From the IMG/VR virus record IMGVR_UViG_3300042308_001934, positions 1-40,638 of that record: a stretch of 40,638 nucleotides of DNA; one strand, given 5' to 3'. The position numbers and the translations under genes are program-made. How positions within the stretch are numbered: the first letter of the stretch is position 1; each line of letters begins with the position of its first letter. Source of the DNA: a virus. Below the pieces are notes generated by a model. The model worked only from the letters and a program-made list of their open reading frames with translations, ran no database searches and was not told the DNA's origin. Below, in pieces: positions 1-40,638 of this stretch.

Positions 1-392
1 AGGCCAGCTGCGCCGAGAAGGAGGGCGAAAGGGGTCATGCCTGCGCCCGTGGGTCGGCGGCGCGGCGCATCTTGGCCAGCTTGTCGCGGCGCTTGCGACC
101 GAGTGGAAGCGATAGGGCGGCGGTCCAGCGGTCGCCAAACTTGGCGGCGGCGCGCTCATTGCTGATAGCCAGTTGCGTCGAAAGGCGGCGGGCCTCGGCC
201 ATGTCCCGCTCATCTTTGGCCCAGATCGCCTTAACCAAGCGAACCACAGTGGCGCGGTGTGCGTCCTTGTTCAGATCATTAAAAAGCCGGGCCTCATGCG
301 CCATGCCGAGCGCGTCATTAAGGCCGAGGCCCATCATGCGGGTCTCAGTGACAATCACGCCGGCATTGATTTGATTGATCGATGTCATTTTA
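1..392. repeat. 392-bp direct repeat, copy B
   Basis: This stretch is identical to 39323-39714. Identity stops at 392; three differing bases follow, then 15 more matching bases (to 410). The unit holds one complete 117-aa gene with its ribosome binding site and the first 14 codons of the next gene downstream on the minus strand. Base 1 is exactly where the two copies start to agree: base 39322 is g and base 40511, which precedes base 1 on the circle, is c. Confidence 0.97.
35..388 (-). CDS. Duplicated 117-aa hypothetical protein, copy B
   Basis: I do not recognise this family. The 117-aa product is helix-rich and charged, with a basic C-terminal third (LGRKRRDKLAKMRR) that suggests nucleic-acid or acidic-partner binding. 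ATG 388 is chosen because AGGAAG lies about 8 nt upstream; a longer reading from 445 would start inside a likely -10 box. The stop overlaps the next minus-strand ATG (ATGA), so that gene is probably coupled. An identical copy sits at 39357-39710, directly before an Aca2/YdiL-like regulator gene. Here the following gene is a 41-aa shortened relative of that regulator. The position suggests an accessory, perhaps anti-host-defence, protein; that is inference from context only. Confidence 0.8.
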   Translation of the reverse strand: MTSINQINAGVIVTETRMMGLGLNDALGMAHEARLFNDLNKDAHRATVVRLVKAIWAKDERDMAEARRLSTQLAISNERAAAKFGDRWTAALSLPLGRKRRDKLAKMRRAADPRAQA

Positions 393-440
393 GGTCTTCC
401 TACCCTTGGCCCGGGGCCAGTCCCCGTGCGTCGATGCGTA

Positions 441-468
441 AACATACAACACTGTTGTATGAGGTCAA
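441..468 (-). promoter_or_regulatory. Promoter with perfect dyad operator for the copy B gene
   Basis: On the minus strand TTGACC (468-463), a 16-bp spacer and TATGTT (446-441) form a sigma70-like promoter. A perfect 8-bp inverted repeat with a 3-bp centre, CATACAAC-act-GTTGTATG (443-461), fills the spacer and touches the -10. This is the usual position for a repressor site. Copy A of the gene lacks this dyad, so the two copies are probably controlled differently. The autoregulator could be an Aca-like protein (inference). Confidence 0.6.
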
Positions 469-1248: not shown

Positions 1249-2322
1249 TTAAACCTTGCTAAAGGGTTTAACAGTCCTTGTTCTGTTTTCGTCCAGGGCC
1301 TGCATGGCCATGGCGTCGTGGGCTAGTCTTTTTTGGTCGGCGGCGGCGGTATAGAGGGCGACTTCGGCTAATCCCTTGTGTCCGGTAATCGCCTTGATCT
1401 GGGCTGGGCTGCAGCCTGCCTCGGCTAGGCGGCGCGCGGCGGCTTTTCTTAGGCCATGGGCGCTGGAATGATCCGGCAGGCCTGCGGCCTTGGCGCTTGC
1501 GGCAAACCAGTTGCCAAAGCCAGCCGCTGTCATGGGCTTGCCCTCGCGGGTCTGGATAAAGGTCAGCTGGCCCGGTGCGACCTGGGCTAGGGCCTCGGCA
1601 AGGGCCGGGGCGATGGGCAGGGTCAGGCGGGTGCGGCCTAGGCTTTTGGACTGGGCCACGGCAATGGTCTGGCCGGTGACATGTTGGCGGCCCATGCCGA
1701 TCACGTCCGATCGGCGCTGGGCGGTATAGAGCAGGAGCCGGAGGGCCAGCCGCTCTCGGCTGCCGCTGGGCCAGTGGGCCTCGAATCTGGCAATGTCTTC
1801 CTCGGTCCAGCTGCGATAGCCGGTCGAGACGGTGCGGATCTTGCGGATGTCGCGCGCTGGATTGTCCGGGCGATAGCCATATTCGACCGCAAACTTCATC
1901 AAGATGCGCAGTTTTTTTAACAGGTCATTGGCCGCGCCGGGCCGGTCGGCATGGCGGTCGAGCAATTTGCGAATATGGCCCGGCTGTAGGCCCGCCACGG
2001 ACAGGTCGCCATACTCATCGCGGAATCGCTCGATCACATGGCGATAGGCCTTTTGGGTAATCGGCTGCAGGGCCTTAAAATAGGCGCTGGCATAATAGTC
2101 GATAATCAGGGCGCTAAAGCTGCCAGGGCGGGTGCGCTCGGCCCCTATGACCCGCACCAGCGGCGATCCGGCCAGCGCCGCCTGATAGGCCGTCATGAAT
2201 TCGCGTGAGCCCGGCAGGCCGGGCAGGGGCACGGGCACCATCCCCGCCTTGCGGAAATAGTGCCGCCGCCGCCCATGCCGATCGGTCAGGGCTTGGACGT
2301 ATTTAAGCCGCAGATTGGTCAA
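1249..2322 (-). CDS. int: Tyrosine integrase
   Basis: Site-specific tyrosine recombinase that would integrate and excise the phage. From the start chosen here the protein has 357 aa: an N-terminal arm-binding-type segment with LKYVQALTDRHGRRRHYFR, a core-binding helical domain (about 70-165), and a catalytic domain. The catalytic set is visible: Arg203 (TAQRRSD), a candidate Lys226, His289 and Arg292 in HGLR, His315 in TGHK and nucleophile Tyr324 in VALYT. The start is taken as TTG 2322 because AGGAAG lies 7 nt upstream and homologous integrases begin just before the LKYVQ segment; an ATG at 2433 would add 37 unlikely residues. It overlaps the upstream HTH gene by 20 bases, which fits an int-xis pair. 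Confidence 0.93.
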   Translation of the reverse strand: MTNLRLKYVQALTDRHGRRRHYFRKAGMVPVPLPGLPGSREFMTAYQAALAGSPLVRVIGAERTRPGSFSALIIDYYASAYFKALQPITQKAYRHVIERFRDEYGDLSVAGLQPGHIRKLLDRHADRPGAANDLLKKLRILMKFAVEYGYRPDNPARDIRKIRTVSTGYRSWTEEDIARFEAHWPSGSRERLALRLLLYTAQRRSDVIGMGRQHVTGQTIAVAQSKSLGRTRLTLPIAPALAEALAQVAPGQLTFIQTREGKPMTAAGFGNWFAASAKAAGLPDHSSAHGLRKAAARRLAEAGCSPAQIKAITGHKGLAEVALYTAAADQKRLAHDAMAMQALDENRTRTVKPFSKV

Positions 2323-2563
2323 GGCCGAGCTTCCTGTCCCATTCGGTGACCCCGCTATTGGGGGCGGCCTGATCTGGCAGGGCCTCAAAGGCCACGTCAA
2401 GGGCCCAGAGGTCCCAGACATTGCGCCGATCAATCGATTTGGGCGGGGGCATCAGGCCCCCAGCCACCAGCTGATCGAATTTCGAGACACTGATGCCGAT
2501 ATAATCTGCCGCCTCAGTGCGGTTTAGGCCCCGGCGCGGGCCGGTGCGGGGGCGGGCGGTCAT
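2303..2563 (-). CDS. Excisionase-like / AlpA-type HTH protein
   Basis: An 86-aa small DNA-binding protein. Residues 13-45 (GLNRTEAADYIGISVSKFDQLV) form a winged-helix/AlpA-MerR-type helix-turn-helix, as in excisionases and AlpA regulators. The PPPKSIDRRNVWDLWALDVAF segment after it matches the wing and third helix of this family. It lies directly upstream of, and overlaps, the integrase gene, so a directionality factor is the natural reading. Its ATG overlaps the stop of the 131-aa gene before it. A truncated near-copy of its first 35 codons is at 3139-2972. Confidence 0.75.
   Translation of the reverse strand: MTARPRTGPRRGLNRTEAADYIGISVSKFDQLVAGGLMPPPKSIDRRNVWDLWALDVAFEALPDQAAPNSGVTEWDRKLGLDQSAA
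2472..2563. repeat. Duplicated 5' part of the HTH gene (complete gene copy)
   Basis: These about 92 bases match 3048-3139 (offset 576) with only about five differences. They carry the ATGA junction, the start codon and the helix-turn-helix coding part. Similarity ends abruptly inside the HTH gene. The other copy belongs to the truncated gene. Confidence 0.9.
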
Positions 2564-5877: not shown

Positions 5878-7329
5878 TCAGCGTTTGCCCTGGACCAGTT
5901 CGGTCAGGAGCTGGATGGCGGGTACGCCGCACAGTTCGATGCGGGTTGCGGCTATGTCGGGATCACGAAGAGTCCAAGCCATGCCCTGATCAAAAATATA
6001 GATCTCTGTGTCGCGGCTGGGGATATGCAGGGATGGCCAGTCGGATACGGTGGGGCCGCGAACCTGCGGCTCTGCCCCGGCCAGCAGCAGGGCGTCGACG
6101 AGGTCGGACAGGGCGCGGGCCGTGGCGCTGGCGGCATACACTTCCGGGGTGATGTCGGGGCTCAGGCGGCTTAAGCGGGTATTGCCCCACGCGGCTTCAT
6201 CAAGCGGCTCAAGGGCAGGCTCTGGCTCAGGCTCTGGGCTGGGGGTCAGGGTACTGACACCAGTCAGGGTGCCGCTTAGGGCTACCCCCGCCTTCGTCCC
6301 CGCCTGCGCGGGGACAGGCTCCCGGACAGGCTCTAGGACAGGCTCAAGGACAGGCTCCGGCGCGGGCCGTTTGGGGGCGCGGAGGGTTTCTAGGGCCTCA
6401 TTGACGGTCATGAGGCCAAGGGCCAGATCGTCCTGGACGACCTCGTCGCACTGTAACAGCTGCAGGCGCAGCTGGACAAATCGCGGGGTCTTGCCGATCA
6501 GCCTGGCAATCTGGCTGGCGGTCTTGCCCATATTGGTCAGGCGGGCAAGGGCCTTGGCCTGATCGATCGGGTTTAGATCCTCGCGCACCATGTTTTCAAC
6601 CACGGCGGCGGCGAAATAGTCCCGCCTCAGAACATCCTCGGCACCCCGCCCCAGAACATCCTCAGCACCAAGGATCGCGGTCATGACCTGGCAGGGAATG
6701 CCGCGCTCGATCGGCCATATCTCCTCGGCAATCAAATGGCCAATGGCGCGCCAGCGGCGCTCACCACTGATTAGGACATAGCGGCCATCTGGCCCCTGAT
6801 AGCAGACAAGGTTCTGCAAAAGACCCATATCAGCAATACTCTCGGCCAAGGCGTCGATCGCCGCGGGCTCAAAATCCGTGCGCGGATTATGGCCGACTGC
6901 AGAGCCGGGGATCAGCTGGTCATGCGGTATCAGTTGCCAACCGGGCAGGCCCCCCGCCTCCGCGGGGGCAGGCCCCCGGGTAGGGTCTGGCTCAAGGCCT
7001 GGGTCTAGGGCGCGGTTTAGGGCGCCCAGATCGCTGCGCCCGGTCTCGGTCAGGTGCCAGTGCCGAGATTGCGCGCCCTGAAAGATCAGGTGCGCAGCCT
7101 GCAAGCGATCCAGGCTCTTGGCCATATTGGCCCGGTCGCGCCCGGTCTGTTTGGCGAGGTCTGTGGTGGTGGCTTCGTCGCGCGCGATCAGCCTAAGCAG
7201 GCTGGACTGGCCAGCGACCAGGGCCATGCGCTCAAGGCGCGCCTCTGGCGAGGCGGGAGTAGGGGGTAAGGCCCCCGCCTGCGCGGGGGCAGGCTCAAGG
7301 GCAGGCTCTGGCTGGGTCTGGGTCATCAT
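5878..7329 (-). CDS. ParB/Srx-domain protein with winged HTH and EP-rich linkers
   Basis: A 483-aa ParB-like DNA-binding protein. In order: an N-terminal EP-rich tail; a winged helix (about 30-100, LLRLIARDEATTTDLAKQTG); a second EP/PAEAG linker; a ParB/Srx-like domain (about 135-240) with NPRTDF and the nucleotide-binding GERRWRA box; an HTH (NMGKTASQIARLIGKTPRFV); a long EPVLEPVLEP-type linker; and a unique C-terminal 130 aa. Bacterial ParB proteins load on a parS-like site with CTP. No ParA is encoded here, so a gene-regulatory or DNA-organising role is more likely than partition. The 19-residue stretch around GAEDVLGRGAEDVLRRD contains an in-frame microduplication. The second ATG (7326) fits AGAGGG spacing better. 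Confidence 0.8.
   Translation of the reverse strand: MMTQTQPEPALEPAPAQAGALPPTPASPEARLERMALVAGQSSLLRLIARDEATTTDLAKQTGRDRANMAKSLDRLQAAHLIFQGAQSRHWHLTETGRSDLGALNRALDPGLEPDPTRGPAPAEAGGLPGWQLIPHDQLIPGSAVGHNPRTDFEPAAIDALAESIADMGLLQNLVCYQGPDGRYVLISGERRWRAIGHLIAEEIWPIERGIPCQVMTAILGAEDVLGRGAEDVLRRDYFAAAVVENMVREDLNPIDQAKALARLTNMGKTASQIARLIGKTPRFVQLRLQLLQCDEVVQDDLALGLMTVNEALETLRAPKRPAPEPVLEPVLEPVREPVPAQAGTKAGVALSGTLTGVSTLTPSPEPEPEPALEPLDEAAWGNTRLSRLSPDITPEVYAASATARALSDLVDALLLAGAEPQVRGPTVSDWPSLHIPSRDTEIYIFDQGMAWTLRDPDIAATRIELCGVPAIQLLTELVQGKR
6296..6315. repeat. REP-like GC palindrome inside the ParB-like gene, copy 1
   Basis: Perfect 8-bp arms GTCCCCGC / GCGGGGAC with loop ctgc. Read in frame it encodes the PAQAG motif in a linker. 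It is nearly the same element as at 6951-6968 and 7271-7290. Confidence 0.9.
6951..6968. repeat. REP-like GC palindrome inside the ParB-like gene, copy 2
   Basis: Arms CCCCCGC / GCGGGGG with loop ctcc. It encodes PAEAG in the linker between the winged helix and the ParB domain, in the same frame as the other two copies. Confidence 0.88.
7271..7290. repeat. REP-like GC palindrome inside the ParB-like gene, copy 3
   Basis: Perfect arms GCCCCCGC / GCGGGGGC with loop ctgc. It encodes PAQAG in the N-terminal tail. All three copies lie in linkers and none lies within a folded domain. Confidence 0.9.
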
Positions 7330-7671: not shown

Positions 7672-7907
7672 GACCGGCCCTCCGGTGTGGCGGCGGCGAG
7701 GCGCTCGGCCATGCCGTCCCATCCGGCTTGATAGCTGTAAGACATCAAGCAGGCCAAGGCCCCGATCAGGGCCATGATCAAGCCGATCTGGAGGCCGATC
7801 TGCGCAACCCCGATCAGGGCGTGACGCAGGGCATAAAACTCGCCAAACCAAGCGCGCCTGCGCGGCGGCATGATGCGAAAAGCATAGCGGTGGGGAATGG
7901 GGGTCAT
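7668..7907 (-). CDS. Small single-pass membrane protein
   Basis: A 79-aa protein with a basic N-terminus (PPRRRAWFGEFYALRH) and one long hydrophobic segment at about residues 34-57 (core IGLQIGLIMALIGALACLM). AGAGGG stands 7 nt before ATG 7907, and the start overlaps the ligase stop. It is probably anchored in the inner membrane. Function unknown. Confidence 0.65.
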   Translation of the reverse strand: MTPIPHRYAFRIMPPRRRAWFGEFYALRHALIGVAQIGLQIGLIMALIGALACLMSYSYQAGWDGMAERLAAATPEGRS

Positions 7908-8788
7908 GCTAGGTCCCTCTTATCTCGAAAGCCCAAGAAAACCGGGTGGCGGGGCGCGGCTGTGTATTGGCCGGGCGAATAGGAGTATTTGACAATCCTG
8001 CCGATCAGGTTCAGGTCCGGCAGGGTCAGGCGGTCAAGATCTGAAAACCCGGTTCCAATATAGAATTCCTGCCCTTCAGAGTTTCTGCAGCAAAGCGCGC
8101 TTAGCCCCCCTTCGCGCGGGCGCATCACAACGCCAATGACGATGGCCTCGGCGTCCTGGGTGGGCTTTAGTTTAAGCAAATAGGCTTCGGTTTGTGTCGA
8201 CCGGCCAAACTTATAGGGCGCGTCATCGCGGCGTAGGATCAGGCCTTCATAGCCTTGGCTTAAAAAATCGGCATAGTGCGCAAGAAGTTCGTCTGCAGTT
8301 TTGACATCATGCTGCTCAATTGGGAAGATAGTACGGCGCGCAGACCAAGCGGGCCACGACGCTGTAGCGCTAACAAAATCCATGCGGCGAGCGCGGTAGG
8401 GTGACCCGTCCCAATCAAGTTTGTCAAAGACGTAAAAGGTCAGATCCGGAATGTCCCCGCCGCGGCTCATGACCGCCGCCGTAGTGCGGCGGAAGGTCTG
8501 GCCATCTTTGGCGGAGCCGACAATCAATTCGCCATCAAGGCCCTCAAATTCCGGCCTGCCAAATTGTTGCTGCACAAAGGCATTGGGGATGGGCTTTAGG
8601 CTGCGGCTCAGGACAACGCCGCCCCGCACCAAGGCCCTGACTCCATCCAGCTTGGGCTGGACAACAATCTGTACGCCCTTGGGCAGGTCCTTAAACAGGG
8701 CCCTAAGATTGGCCGGGGCCTTGGCGGCAAGCATGGGGCTGAACTGGTCGGTCATGCATTGCCCACCGTCTTGAAATATCTCACTCAT
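7904..8788 (-). CDS. ATP-dependent DNA ligase
   Basis: A 294-aa phage-type ATP-dependent DNA ligase that seals nicks during replication and recombination. Motif I is QPKLDGVR with the adenylated Lys46; EGLDGEL (82-88), FYVFDKLDWDG (motif III-like, 118-128), EGLILRR (motif IV, 181-187) and LLKLKP (motif V, 204-209) follow in the normal order. The C-terminal part, with IGRIVKYSYSPG and a final PRHPVFLGFRD, is an OB-fold domain. There is no extra zinc or BRCT domain, as in small phage enzymes. ATG 8788 overlaps the upstream stop; an ATG at 8755 is an alternative start. Confidence 0.92.
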   Translation of the reverse strand: MSEIFQDGGQCMTDQFSPMLAAKAPANLRALFKDLPKGVQIVVQPKLDGVRALVRGGVVLSRSLKPIPNAFVQQQFGRPEFEGLDGELIVGSAKDGQTFRRTTAAVMSRGGDIPDLTFYVFDKLDWDGSPYRARRMDFVSATASWPAWSARRTIFPIEQHDVKTADELLAHYADFLSQGYEGLILRRDDAPYKFGRSTQTEAYLLKLKPTQDAEAIVIGVVMRPREGGLSALCCRNSEGQEFYIGTGFSDLDRLTLPDLNLIGRIVKYSYSPGQYTAAPRHPVFLGFRDKRDLA

Positions 8789-12998: not shown

Positions 12999-14191
12999 GC
13001 GCCGCCCCCGCCACAACAGACCTTAGGGCCCTATTCGACTCTGCGCGCGGTGTGGATATCGAGGCTGTGGCGGGGGTGCGGTTGTTCCGCGCCGGGCGGC
13101 GTTGGCGCGGGCCTTGTCCCTTGTGCGGGGCCAGTGCGGGCAAGAAGGCCGATGGGGCCTTTAGCGTCGATAAGGCGCTCGGCCTGTTCTGGTGTCATGC
13201 CTGTAATGAGCATGGTGACGTGATCTCGCTGGAGCGCGCCCTGCGCGGTGGCACGGCGCGTGAGGCGGCGGAGCGGTTAAGCGGCGGGTCTGTGGTGGCG
13301 TTTCGCCCGGCTGCGCCGCAAGCGCGCGCGACCAAGCCGGTCCAGGGCGGGACGCAGTTATCGGGGCGGCTGTGGGATCAGGCCTCGCCGCCGCCGCATC
13401 ATGATGGCCAAGGCGGGATGCATCCCTTGCGTCGGTATCTGCGCAGCCGGGGCCTGAGCGGGCCGTCTATGGATTCGGCCCTGATGCGATTGCGCTATCT
13501 GCCGCGCGCCTATTATGGGCCGGACCCGTTTGATGAGCCGATCTATCTGCCTGCCATGATTGCCCAGGTGGTGACCGAGGCGGGTCCGACGGGCGGGGTG
13601 CATCTGACCTATCTGGACCCCCTGCGCGGCTATGCCAAGACCCAGCTGAGGCCCGGCAAAAAGATGTTTGGGCCGCAAAATGATGCCGATGGCCGCCCCG
13701 GCGGGGTCTGGCTGGCGCGCCCGCGCGACGCGCGCGTCCTGGTGGTGGCGGAAGGCATTGAGACCGCCTTGGCGGCGGCAAGATTGCAGGGCCGGGCCTG
13801 TCACGTCTTGGCGGCGCTGAGCCTGAACCGCTTGCAGGGCGGGTGGCTTGCCGATCGATGGGGCCGCAAGAATCCCGACCTGGTCCAGGCCGATCCGGAT
13901 CAGCCCGCCGTGACCTGGGATGTGTCCGGGGCCGGGATCGATGAGGTCTTGATCGCCATTGACCGAGATATGAGCCCGATTGATGTGCCGGTGCGCGGGC
14001 CAACCGGGCGCACGGTCAAGCAATCGATCGACGGGGAAAAGCGCGCCGCGATCTGTGCCGGCCTAGCCGTGGCCGCATGGCGCGCCAGGCTGGGCGATGG
14101 CGTGACCGTGCGGGCCATAGCCCCGCCGCCGGGGCTGGATTTCAATGATGCCTTAAAACAAAAACTGACCCTGGGAGGGGTGGATGTCTGA
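12995..14191 (+). CDS. DNA primase (CHC2 zinc finger and Toprim)
   Basis: A 398-aa primase-type protein that would make RNA primers for phage replication. A zinc-binding CPLCGA...FWCHACNEHGD module (about residues 41-75) recognises DNA. The Toprim domain (about 245-365) has VVAEGIETALAAARL with the catalytic Glu, and LIAIDRDMS carrying the Asp pair. It overlaps the methyltransferase before it (ATGA) and the helicase after it by 8 nt, so the two replication proteins are made together. Confidence 0.9.
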   Translation: MSAAPATTDLRALFDSARGVDIEAVAGVRLFRAGRRWRGPCPLCGASAGKKADGAFSVDKALGLFWCHACNEHGDVISLERALRGGTAREAAERLSGGSVVAFRPAAPQARATKPVQGGTQLSGRLWDQASPPPHHDGQGGMHPLRRYLRSRGLSGPSMDSALMRLRYLPRAYYGPDPFDEPIYLPAMIAQVVTEAGPTGGVHLTYLDPLRGYAKTQLRPGKKMFGPQNDADGRPGGVWLARPRDARVLVVAEGIETALAAARLQGRACHVLAALSLNRLQGGWLADRWGRKNPDLVQADPDQPAVTWDVSGAGIDEVLIAIDRDMSPIDVPVRGPTGRTVKQSIDGEKRAAICAGLAVAAWRARLGDGVTVRAIAPPPGLDFNDALKQKLTLGGVDV

Positions 14192-37765: not shown

Positions 37766-38056
37766 ATGAATACCCAATCCCTGCTTGGCCTGGGCGGTTT
37801 TATGGTTGCGACCATTTCCGCAATCGTGGTGCCGCTGTTTATTGTCTTCTTCCGCATGGGCCGGTCTGCGGCGGATCTGGAGGCCCAGGGCAAGGAGATC
37901 GAGGCCCTCAAGACCCGGACCGAAAAACATGGCCATGATCTCGCCGGTATAGCCTCGCTGCGCGATCTGCTTGATGAGGTCCGGGCAGATGTGAAAATAC
38001 TTTTAACCAAGCCCGCGCGCGCCCAGGGCCAGCGCGACAAGGAGCCATCGACATGA
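37766..38056 (+). CDS. N-terminally anchored coiled-coil protein of the lysis module
   Basis: A 96-aa protein with one N-terminal membrane segment (about 8-30, GFMVATISAIVVPLFIVFF) and a charged coiled coil behind it (LEAQGKEIEALKTRTEKHG). This is the topology of an i-spanin or a holin accessory factor. No outer-membrane spanin lipoprotein is seen nearby. Its stop overlaps the endolysin start (ATGA). Confidence 0.6.
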   Translation: MNTQSLLGLGGFMVATISAIVVPLFIVFFRMGRSAADLEAQGKEIEALKTRTEKHGHDLAGIASLRDLLDEVRADVKILLTKPARAQGQRDKEPST

Positions 38057-38520
38057 CCTTTGACGAAGCTTTTGAAGTCCTGATCGGGCATGAGGGCGGC
38101 TATGTGAACGATCCGCGCGATCCGGGCGGGGAGACCAAATATGGGATTTCCAAGCGCGCCTATCCGGCGGTGGATATTCGCAATCTGACCCTGGACGGGG
38201 CCAAGGCGATCTATCGGCGGGACTATTGGGCACCGGTTGGATGCGACAACCTGCCAGCCGCCCTTCGATTCCACGTCTTTGACGCCGCCGTGAATTCGGG
38301 CCTTCGCCAAGCGGTCCAGTTTCTGCAAAGAGCGGTCGAGGTTCCCGCCGATGGCCGCTTAGGGCCAGTCACCCGCGCCGCCGTCATGGCCGCCGATCCT
38401 GCCAGCCTAGCCGCCCGATACAGCGCCGCGCGCCTGCAGTTCATGACCGAGCTTTCGACCTGGCCCACCTTTGGCAAGGGCTGGGCGCGGCGGATTGCCA
38501 GCAATCTCATGAGGGCCTAG
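38053..38520 (+). CDS. Endolysin, glycoside hydrolase family 108
   Basis: A 155-aa muramidase that would cut the peptidoglycan glycan chain at lysis. The family signature IGHEGGYVNDPRDPGGETKYGI at the N-terminus contains the catalytic Glu14. The C-terminal half (QFLQRAVEVPADGRLGPVTRAAV) is the PG_binding_3 domain that always accompanies GH108. No signal peptide, so a holin is needed for release. Length is typical (about 155-180). Confidence 0.93.
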   Translation: MTFDEAFEVLIGHEGGYVNDPRDPGGETKYGISKRAYPAVDIRNLTLDGAKAIYRRDYWAPVGCDNLPAALRFHVFDAAVNSGLRQAVQFLQRAVEVPADGRLGPVTRAAVMAADPASLAARYSAARLQFMTELSTWPTFGKGWARRIASNLMRA

Positions 38521-38523
38521 GCC

Positions 38524-38940
38524 ATGGACCTTACTTCCGTTCTAGGTGTTGTAGCGACGGTGATCGACCGCGCGTTTCCTGATCCTGCCCAGCGCGATGC
38601 CGCCAAGCTGAAACTGCTCGAGCTCCAGCAGTCGGGCGAGATGGCGCAGCTCGCCGCGGACACAGAGTTGGCCAAGGCCCAGGCCGCGATCAACCAGACC
38701 GAGGCGGCCAATCCAAACCTGTTTGTCAGCGGCTGGCGACCCTTTGTCGGCTGGGTCTGTGGGCTGGGCCTGGCCTATGCCTTCCTGATCAAGCCGATTG
38801 CCTCGCCCCTGATCCAGAAATGGTGCGGGGTGCCCATGGAGGCGCTGGATATCAGCACCCTCCTGACCCTGTTGTTTGGTATGCTTGGCCTTGGCGGGCT
38901 GCGCACGTTTGAAAAAATGAACGGCGTGGCGCGAAAATAG
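38524..38940 (+). CDS. Holin, 3-TM gene-transfer-agent type
   Basis: A 138-aa protein. A charged N-terminal half (PDPAQRDAAKLKLLELQQSG) is followed by NLFVSGWRPFVGWVCGLGLAYAF, the signature of the 'holin of 3TMs' (GTA release) family, and two hydrophobic segments (LIKPIASPLI; TLLTLLFGMLGLGGL). It would form the membrane hole for the endolysin. It starts 3 nt after the endolysin stop and ends the rightward transcription unit; no clear terminator lies in the 18 bases before the convergent gene. Confidence 0.88.
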   Translation: MDLTSVLGVVATVIDRAFPDPAQRDAAKLKLLELQQSGEMAQLAADTELAKAQAAINQTEAANPNLFVSGWRPFVGWVCGLGLAYAFLIKPIASPLIQKWCGVPMEALDISTLLTLLFGMLGLGGLRTFEKMNGVARK

Positions 38941-38958: not shown

Positions 38959-39360
38959 TTAGGGCTGGTGGGCCTCAATAGCGGCCGCCGTGGCGAGGCT
39001 AGAGCCGCGCGGAACCAGGCGCAGAGGCATGGCCGCGACCACCACCCGCGCAGCCATGGCCCGCCACGCGCCGACTGAGGGCCAGCCGAGGCCCTTGGCC
39101 TCATAGTCGTCGGTCGGATAGCCAAGCTCGATCTCGGCAGCGGGGTGGTGGCTGCGGGTCTGTTCGATCTGGGCTATGGCCTCGCGCGCGGCGCGCTCTT
39201 GTTTTTGGATCAGGGCCAGCAGCTCATCAAGGACAGCCGGGCGGCAATTATTGCGCCCGCTCGACCATGCGTGAATTGTATCAAGGCGAACCTGCAAAAA
39301 GTCACTGGCCTCTCTGTGCGAGAGGCCAGCTGCGCCGAGAAGGAGGGCGAAAGGGGTCAT
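38959..39360 (-). CDS. Aca2/YdiL-like HTH regulator
   Basis: A 133-aa regulator. The HTH is at about residues 5-45 (LLLGAAGLSHREASDFLQVR, then DTIHAWSSGRNNCRPAVLDE), and the C-terminal part has GLGWPSVGAWRAMAARVV at about 90-107, the placing of the GW...A.A.... segment in Aca2/YdiL-like proteins. Aca proteins autorepress operons carrying anti-CRISPR genes. Here the ATG overlaps the stop of the duplicated 117-aa gene (ATGA), giving an acr-aca-like layout. The family resemblance is partial and read by eye; it may be a related control protein with no anti-CRISPR link. Confidence 0.6.
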   Translation of the reverse strand: MTPFALLLGAAGLSHREASDFLQVRLDTIHAWSSGRNNCRPAVLDELLALIQKQERAAREAIAQIEQTRSHHPAAEIELGYPTDDYEAKGLGWPSVGAWRAMAARVVVAAMPLRLVPRGSSLATAAAIEAHQP

Positions 39361-39714
39361 GCCTGCGCCCGTGGGTCGGCGGCGCGGCGCATCTTGGCCA
39401 GCTTGTCGCGGCGCTTGCGACCGAGTGGAAGCGATAGGGCGGCGGTCCAGCGGTCGCCAAACTTGGCGGCGGCGCGCTCATTGCTGATAGCCAGTTGCGT
39501 CGAAAGGCGGCGGGCCTCGGCCATGTCCCGCTCATCTTTGGCCCAGATCGCCTTAACCAAGCGAACCACAGTGGCGCGGTGTGCGTCCTTGTTCAGATCA
39601 TTAAAAAGCCGGGCCTCATGCGCCATGCCGAGCGCGTCATTAAGGCCGAGGCCCATCATGCGGGTCTCAGTGACAATCACGCCGGCATTGATTTGATTGA
39701 TCGATGTCATTTTA
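39323..39714. repeat. 392-bp direct repeat, copy A
   Basis: Identical to bases 1-392. Separated from copy B by 797 bases on the circle (39715-40511), which hold the pentapeptide-repeat gene and the short regulator fragment; the repeat period is 1,189 bp. Confidence 0.97.
39357..39710 (-). CDS. Duplicated 117-aa hypothetical protein, copy A
   Basis: The protein is identical to that at 35-388. AGGAAG about 8 nt before ATG 39710 supports the start. This copy is preceded by a 14-codon ORF with its own ribosome site instead of the dyad promoter, and is followed by the complete Aca2/YdiL-like gene. The perfect identity over coding and non-coding bases points to a very recent duplication or ongoing conversion between the copies. 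Function unknown; an anti-defence role is inferred from the neighbour only. Confidence 0.8.
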   Translation of the reverse strand: MTSINQINAGVIVTETRMMGLGLNDALGMAHEARLFNDLNKDAHRATVVRLVKAIWAKDERDMAEARRLSTQLAISNERAAAKFGDRWTAALSLPLGRKRRDKLAKMRRAADPRAQA

Positions 39715-39756
39715 AAACTTCCTACCCTTGGCGTTGATTTTCGCGAAATATTCCAT
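39712..39756 (-). CDS. 14-codon ORF coupled to copy A gene
   Basis: ATG 39756 has AAAGGA 8 nt upstream (the same leader as the pentapeptide gene) and reads MEYFAKINAKGRKF before TAA at 39714-39712, one base from the next ATG. It may couple translation of the 117-aa protein, or be the leftover start of a gene whose body was replaced when the repeat arrived. Confidence 0.45.
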   Translation of the reverse strand: MEYFAKINAKGRKF

Positions 39757-39793
39757 CGTCTTATCCTTTCACAGATGGTATCCACTAAGGGGA
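39757..39793 (-). promoter_or_regulatory. Shared leader element, copy next to the 14-codon ORF
   Basis: About 37 bases upstream of ATG 39756 match those upstream of the pentapeptide gene ATG 40358 with two mismatches. The block contains TTAGTGGATACC and the ribosome site. Confidence 0.75.
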
Positions 39794-39819
39794 GGATCCC
39801 CGGTTACTAGAGTCTAATG

Positions 39820-39842
39820 GGAAGCCCCTGGCAGAGGCTTCC
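39820..39842. other. Hairpin downstream of the pentapeptide gene
   Basis: Arms GGAAGCC / GGCTTCC (39820-39826, 39836-39842) with a 9-nt loop, flanked by partial repeats (agagtct). It lies just past the pentapeptide stop on the minus strand; no U-tract. Confidence 0.5.
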
Positions 39843-39863
39843 GGTTAGAGTCTGGCGCTGTTC

Positions 39864-40358
39864 TTAGACGGGCAGAACAGCCCCGCAAAGGTTAGCGCCG
39901 CCAAGGTTAGCGCCGCCAAGGTCAGCCCCGCGAAGGTCAGCCCTGCAAAGGTTAGCGCCGCCAAGGTTAGCGCCGCCAAGGTCAGAGCCGCCAAGGTCAG
40001 CGCCGAAAAGGTCAGCCTTGCGAAGGTCCGCCCAGCTAAGGTCAGCCCCGCGAAGGTTAGCCCAGCGAAGGTTAGCGCCGTGAAGGTCAGCGCCGCAAAG
40101 GTCAGCGCCGCGAAGGTTAGTCCAGCTAAGGTCAGCGCCGCAAAGGTCAGCCATGCGAAGGTTAGCCCCGCGAAGGTAAGCGCCGCAAATATCAGCCTCG
40201 CTAAGGTCAGCGCCTTCAAGACTGGCATCGGCCTTGACGGCTTGCAGCACTAGCAGCCGCAACTTACACGATTGCGGCGCGTCCGGCTCGCAGTCAATTT
40301 CTGCGGCGTACAGAACTTCGCCCGTGTGTCTGTGTGTGATGTTGAATAGTTCGGTCAT
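39864..40358 (-). CDS. Pentapeptide-repeat protein
   Basis: A 164-aa protein. After a 45-aa non-repeat N-terminus (FNITHRHTGEVLYAAEID), about 23 tandem pentapeptides A(D/N)LxG/x fill residues 46-160 (ADLCGADLSWTNLRGADLCG and similar), which fold as a right-handed square beta-helix. Some such proteins (Qnr, MfpA) mimic DNA and bind gyrase; others have no known target. The underlying DNA is a 15-bp tandem repeat. AAAGGA is 8 nt before ATG 40358. The gene is bracketed by the 392-bp repeats, so it could be lost as a unit by recombination. Confidence 0.85.
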   Translation of the reverse strand: MTELFNITHRHTGEVLYAAEIDCEPDAPQSCKLRLLVLQAVKADASLEGADLSEADICGAYLRGANLRMADLCGADLSWTNLRGADLCGADLHGANLRWANLRGADLSWADLRKADLFGADLGGSDLGGANLGGANLCRADLRGADLGGANLGGANLCGAVLPV

Positions 40359-40420
40359 CGTCTTGTCCTTTCACAGACGGTATCCACTAAGGGGGGGGGC
40401 GGGATGGTATCCCCTAAGGG
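40359..40420 (-). promoter_or_regulatory. Leader of the pentapeptide gene with two repeated operator-like blocks
   Basis: Two blocks of the form CCCCTTAG(T/G)GGATACC lie near 40377-40392 and 40403-40418; a third stands at 39775-39792 before the 14-codon ORF. The middle base change makes one block contain the palindrome CCCCTTAGGGG. They may be binding sites of a regulator of this cassette. Confidence 0.5.
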
Positions 40421-40423
40421 GGG

Positions 40424-40549
40424 TCAGGCGTCCAGCTTGGCCCGCAGCCATGCAGTCGCGGCCTTGTTATTGTCGTAAAAGTGCGCCGCAGCCTCGTGGC
40501 CAAGAAGCGACAGGCCAGCTGCGCCGAGAAGGAGGGCGAAAGGGGTCAT
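40424..40549 (-). CDS. 41-aa shortened relative of the Aca2/YdiL-like regulator
   Basis: The first 14 residues (MTPFALLLGAAGLS) equal those of the regulator at 38959-39360 because they lie inside the repeat. After that it reads LLGHEAAAHFYDNNKAATAW and ends after nine more residues. The EA and AW positions align with EASDFLQVRLDTIHAW in the complete protein, so it may be a diverged, cut-down HTH. It overlaps the stop of the copy B gene on the circle (bases 35-38 equal 40546-40549). Translated but possibly non-functional. Confidence 0.5.
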   Translation of the reverse strand: MTPFALLLGAAGLSLLGHEAAAHFYDNNKAATAWLRAKLDA

Positions 40550-40638
40550 GCCTGCGCCCGTGGGTCGGCGGCGCGGCGCATCTTGGCCAGCTTGTCGCGG
40601 CGCTTGCGACCGAGTGGAAGCGATAGGGCGGCGGTCCA
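40512..40638. repeat. 127-bp terminal overlap of the circular contig
   Basis: Identical to bases 1-127. The length equals a common assembler k-mer, so these bases should be counted once. They include a cut-off copy (40546-40638, minus) of the 3' end of the 117-aa gene, which is the same gene as 35-388. Confidence 0.95.

Follow-up and report, generated by a model that had tools for sequence, protein, structure and literature searches.

A probable anti-defence-type operon with an Aca2-like regulator in a temperate phage, and its relatives with exchanged cargo genes

Anti-defence proteins, anti-CRISPRs included, have no sequence in common and are therefore often found via their regulators. The question raised by the locus analysed here is whether a 117-aa ORF and the HTH gene that follows it, in a viral genome (IMG/VR record IMGVR_UViG_3300042308_001934; the whole stretch of 40,638 bp is called the window), make up an operon of this kind. 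A preliminary description, made from the sequence, had proposed an acr-aca-like pair, recently duplicated, located at the end of the genome next to lysis genes and provided with repeated operator-like leaders. The coordinates of the relevant features are collected in Table 1. The overlap between the 117-aa ORF and the HTH gene, both on the minus strand and sharing an ATGA, was found as described. The duplication is also real, and larger than claimed: the entire 117-aa gene recurs, identical, as copy B.

Table 1. Features of the operon and its surroundings in the window, and of the CRISPR-bearing genome G086 (last line)
Feature	Position	Strand	Remarks
Aca2/YdiL-like HTH regulator P0001, 133 aa	38959..39360	-	
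117-aa cargo protein, copy A	39357..39710	-	stop overlaps regulator start (ATGA)
117-aa cargo protein, copy B	35..388	-	identical to A; carries native promoter and leader
Ribosome-binding region of copy B	386..405	-	GGGTAGGAAGACCTAAAATG; relatives similar: GG-AGACCT-ATG
Leader RNA hairpin	408..430	-	GC-A-CGGGG-ACUGG-CCCCG-G-GC; just before ribosome-binding site
Core promoter	441..468	-	TTGACC-16-TATGTT; operator between and over both boxes
Putative operator, perfect palindrome	443..461	-	CATACAACA-N-TGTTGTATG; core TACA-N7-TGTA 445-459
Repeat R, copy A	39323..39732	.	407/410 identical to 1-410
Repeat R, copy B	1..410	.	
Leader before copy A	39754..39795	-	common to pentapeptide gene
Pentapeptide-repeat protein, 164 aa	39864..40358	-	between both R copies; own leader
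Pentapeptide-gene leader	40356..40423	-	two CCCCTTAG-GGATACC elements
41-aa chimeric ORF	40424..40549	-	regulator's first 14 codons (MTPFALLLGAAGLS) and unrelated tail
Terminal direct repeat, exact, 127 bp	40512..40638 (= 1-127)	.	assembly overlap of circular path
Integrase	1249-2433		
GH108 lysin/holin genes	38053-38940		
G086 Cas9 system and targeted prophage	C3:136519-143063 and C15:13015-55221		(L086-L090, L088-L093)

Taken alone, the regulator gave weak matches only (HTH_31, 0.001), and scored 13.8 bits against the Pfam family Aca2_YdiL (PF08965), under the gathering cut-off of 23.8 bits. Weak matches to PF08965 were found in 10 of 14 relatives, with a best E of 0.0012. When the PDB was searched with a profile of 14 members, the best chain was Aca2 7ezy (E=1.3e-6, over 1-114), and Aca2 was best again with a profile of 39 members (E 7.6e-5). 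An AlphaFold model of the regulator, obtained with 39 relatives, has a pLDDT of 93.5. Its top Foldseek matches, all over the full length, are SO3848 (2ox6), Aca2 (7ezy, 7vjq and 7b5j) and YdiL (1s4k), with TM values of 0.57-0.75; for the Aca2 structures these are 0.67-0.71, at 17-25% identity. Profile search and structure prediction, the checks that had been suggested, agree therefore in that the predicted fold is that of Aca2/YdiL over the full length, though below the PF08965 cut-off, and the likeness proposed earlier holds for the HTH and for the C-terminal part. Since the regulator is a full-length structural relative and yet scores below the Pfam cut-off, its clade is, as judged by sequence, a separate sister family of Aca2.

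Members of this family resemble Aca2 (ZF40 and Oceanimonas types; PF08965) in length, in the succession of HTH, long helix and C-terminal alpha/beta part, in the location directly behind a small phage gene, and in the inverted repeat found within the core promoter. Unlike Aca2, they feature C-terminal motifs of their own (GWP-C-V-G-A and LVPRGST-ATAAA), and no known acr is found beside their genes. YdiL (1s4k) and SO3848 (2ox6) have the same fold, but neither is known to be encoded behind phage cargo genes (PMC9410906 for YdiL). Aca12 and other longer Aca families, compared by length alone, are similar in this respect (140 aa; PMC9765179). Published Aca families share little sequence with one another (PMC9765179).

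About 45 relatives of the regulator were identified in phage or prophage contigs, at 39 viral loci and in six bacterial contigs, the latter mostly labelled as Rhodospirillales or Roseomonas MAGs; further relatives came from blind genome scans. Named hosts are mostly Alphaproteobacteria, the host range of the family having been sampled in only about 800 genomes. In most loci the HTH start overlaps the stop of the small ORF by 4 bases (-4), as in the window. The genes found upstream vary: 34 cargo proteins, 72-233 aa long, fall into 29 clusters, nearly all of them being unrelated to one another. A fixed regulator accompanied by exchanged cargo is the pattern behind the discovery of many Acrs. 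Neither known Acrs nor named functions emerged when the 34 proteins were compared to NCBIfam, PADLOC and PHROGs; part of the set, scanned also against Pfam and PDB, similarly included no known Acr, and none of the cargo proteins scanned matched a known anti-defence family. One cargo family, of about 111-121 aa and marked by the motif eA..iL.yDG..yEIR, recurs in four loci (L038, L042, L099 and L100), and one of its members comes from a genome that also has a type I-C CRISPR system. PDB searches carried out with this family, and with the cargo of the genome G086 described below, gave nothing convincing. The diverged regulators of L006 and L046 have a cargo family in common (36% identity); in L006, terminase genes are located nearby on the opposite strand.

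The 117-aa protein of the window had no match among Acr, Pfam, PHROG, NCBIfam, PADLOC and PDB entries, and only two relatives, both near-identical, were found in IMG/VR or phage records. The changes that distinguish its gene from those of the close relatives L004 and L005 are mostly synonymous, which argues that the protein is real and conserved. It is basic (pI 11.1), and an AlphaFold model made from 3 near-identical sequences is all-helical but, at a pLDDT of 53, not good enough to look for similar folds. Being a small phage protein encoded beside an aca-like gene, it is a plausible, if unproven, candidate anti-CRISPR.

The palindrome located before copy B has 9-bp arms and occurs once in the window. 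Motifs fitting TACA-N7-TGTA numbered 23 in the 1.8 kb upstream of HTH genes and 0 in 187 kb elsewhere (Fisher 1e-13); the usual form is ATACAC-N5-GTGTAT, and an exact match is absent in 15 of 38 loci. Loci retrieved in the later blind genome scans also carry the motif. A TTGAC (-35) precedes it, in most cases with the same spacing, and the -10 box shares bases with the second half-site, so that the palindrome is conserved over a consensus promoter. The order TTGAC, palindrome between -35 and -10, hairpin and ribosome-binding site is common to most relatives. The palindrome of the window is the probable operator of the regulator. Inverted repeats in the core promoter are known for Aca families, and the promoter is repressed in reporter assays (PMC9410906).

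The leader hairpin is similarly found once in the window, before copy B. By itself, the window leader folds with an unremarkable energy (z -0.31), and the hairpin is evident only through covariation across relatives. In 19 gap-free sequences, aligned by a script that centres on the stem and hence favours pairing, 92.9% of cells are paired versus 79.5 in shuffled sets; double changes, a safer sign, were found in 5 of the 7 pairs. The covariation score is 0.325 versus 0.117, and 0 of 500 shuffles reached 0.325. The loop is of the A-Y-U-G-G type. G-U pairs are frequent, which indicates that the element is RNA, and not a DNA palindrome. Aca2 is known to bind RNA, and in a 2024 paper is reported to repress translation via leader stem-loops; the family described here has a conserved hairpin ahead of the ribosome-binding site. 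The structure of an Aca2-RNA complex has been solved (PMC11239489). At L048 (2837-2989) just 152 bp separate operator and hairpin from the HTH gene, and contain no clear cargo ORF; the regulator may therefore stand alone there.

An operon of the family (L056) is located at the edge of a prophage integrated in contig C15 of genome G086. The prophage features a tRNA-Ser and 65-bp direct (att) repeats (13015-13079 and 55157-55221), and host genes such as SMC lie outside it. The same genome encodes a full-length Cas9 (ORF of 1048 aa) and Cas1, and has an array of 32 spacers, 30 nt each. Five of these match the resident prophage, at 30, 29, 28, 27 and 24 of 30 positions, the best score of shuffled spacers being 22; no match above 22 was found in C15 outside the prophage. 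In all five protospacers the fifth base of the 3' flank is C (CGGCCC, ACGCCT, CCGTCC, GGATCC, TCGCCA), which would fit a PAM of the N4C type, the orientation of the array being assumed from the repeat. Coexistence of an intact Cas9 system with a prophage that it targets is a familiar clue to an anti-CRISPR, and its simplest explanation would be a block of Cas9 by the prophage. Some genomes have self-targeting spacers but no Acr. The cargo gene of the G086 operon differs from the 117-aa gene, and the association concerns one genome; in G602, the second CRISPR-bearing host of the family (type I-C), none of the 8 visible spacers of a truncated array is self-targeting. As in acr-aca operons of self-targeted prophages, the G086 operon is found at a prophage edge, has the HTH gene as its last gene and resides in a prophage matched by a Cas9 array; unlike in those, its small gene does not correspond to any known Acr.

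Of the acr-aca pair originally envisaged, the 'aca' half is well supported, by the full-length fold, the position as last gene of the operon, the ATGA coupling, the conserved operator and the interchangeable upstream cargo seen across the relatives; the 'acr' half is not, the 117-aa protein lacking similarity to known Acrs. For the latter half, the self-targeted prophage of G086, with its different cargo gene, provides the best indirect support. An autoregulated operon of anti-defence type, built like acr-aca operons and carried by a temperate phage, is the likely interpretation of the locus, and the regulators form an apparently new Aca2-like family that would control interchangeable cargo, probably of anti-defence function. 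Early on infection the strong promoter would fire, so that the small cargo protein, in this phage the one of 117 aa, is synthesized. The Aca2-like protein, product of the translationally coupled last gene, would then bind the palindromic operator between -35 and -10 and shut transcription; it probably also acts on the leader hairpin before the ribosome-binding site, and may stop translation. Retention of regulator and leader across phages and prophages, with exchange of the cargo, would be expected if the cargo counters host-specific defences, CRISPR plausibly among them. The locus could also be a general accessory (moron) locus, in which the repressor holds down early or lysogenic accessory genes, while the cargo serves diverse functions (superinfection exclusion, host takeover or metabolism, for instance) and is not mainly anti-defence. 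This would agree with the lack of cargo matching known anti-defence families, with the fact that only 3% of Aca2-like proteins are accompanied by known acr genes, and with the activity of YdiL relatives outside acr loci (PMC9410906). We regard it nonetheless as unlikely, because cargo turnover next to a fixed regulator and leader, small cargo and a self-targeted prophage are what anti-defence loci typically show. Gene order, coupling and autorepression by the HTH protein would be the same in a reverse-order toxin-antitoxin module, where, as in HigBA or MqsRA, the HTH antitoxin gene follows the toxin gene, and Aca2 resembles the antitoxin MqsA in structure (PMC9410906). Such modules should however feature few recurring known families, while neither a match to toxin families nor a recurring toxin was found among the 34 cargo proteins and their 29 clusters, and the full-length fold match is to Aca2/YdiL, not to antitoxins. 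In the absence of a recurring toxin, this highly improbable reading has been set aside.

The placement of the locus at the end of the genome turned out to be an artefact of the contig cut. Positions 1-127 and 40512-40638 of the window are identical, so the record probably closes as a 40,511-bp circle containing two copies of a unit of about 390 bp, named R. In the circle the operon is not at a genome end, but between the integrase and the holin/lysin genes. A further copy of the 3' end of the 117-aa gene is found at 40549-40638. The two direct R copies flank a pentapeptide segment of about 800 bp (39712-40511), which homologous recombination could thus delete, and the 41-aa ORF is a recombination junction within regulator codon 14/15. 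Copy A lost the native operator and hairpin, and is preceded by the pentapeptide leader instead. The close relatives L004 and L005 have a single R and no pentapeptide gene, hence the unit has not been simply duplicated. Repeated leaders do exist, as the preliminary description had it: GGTATCCMCTAAGGGG occurs 3 times without a mismatch, against an expectation of 0.42 matches when up to 3 mismatches are allowed. They belong, however, to the inserted pentapeptide segment. GGTATCCMCTAAGGGG was considered as operator of the regulator and rejected, as it is missing from the copy B promoter, while TACA-N7-TGTA is common to the relatives. The pentapeptide gene, which had been thought of as part of the same set, has its own leader, and nothing was found that ties it to the regulator; its CCCCTTAG-GGATACC leader had no exact match in IMG/VR. 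The encoded protein is possibly a DNA mimic. The duplication might alternatively reflect an assembly mixture, in which some molecules have a single R and the pentapeptide segment derives from a variant or excised circle. Both contig ends fall within the repeat and overlap by exactly 127 bp, which is an assembly word length, and the single R of the relatives points the same way. Against this, the contig spans one whole mid-contig R with both unique segments attached, which is most simply explained by a circle with two R, and we consider a mixture somewhat unlikely. It would concern the duplication only, and is compatible with any functional reading of the operon.

The regulator family, the operator TACA-N7-TGTA and the leader hairpin provide a new bait for anti-defence genes. 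Around 30 small candidate families accompany the regulator, most without named function, and one candidate, residing on a prophage that ought to be destroyed by the Cas9 of its own host, lends itself readily to a direct test. A broader proposal is that the regulators form an undescribed clade of the Aca2 superfamily, in phages largely of Alphaproteobacteria, which exerts control at two levels, through the promoter operator and through the RNA hairpin of the leader. The clade would then point to some 30 unknown protein families with anti-CRISPR or other anti-defence activity, inhibitors of alphaproteobacterial Cas9 among them. We advance this proposal tentatively, as having slightly less than an even chance of being right; if true, further cases could be retrieved with the composite leader as the sole bait. 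The hairpin also raises the question whether dual DNA/RNA control, known for Aca2, extends across the wider superfamily. As to the remaining gene content, the phage encodes a ParB-like protein (5878-7329, minus strand) and an ATP-dependent DNA ligase (7904-8788, minus strand).
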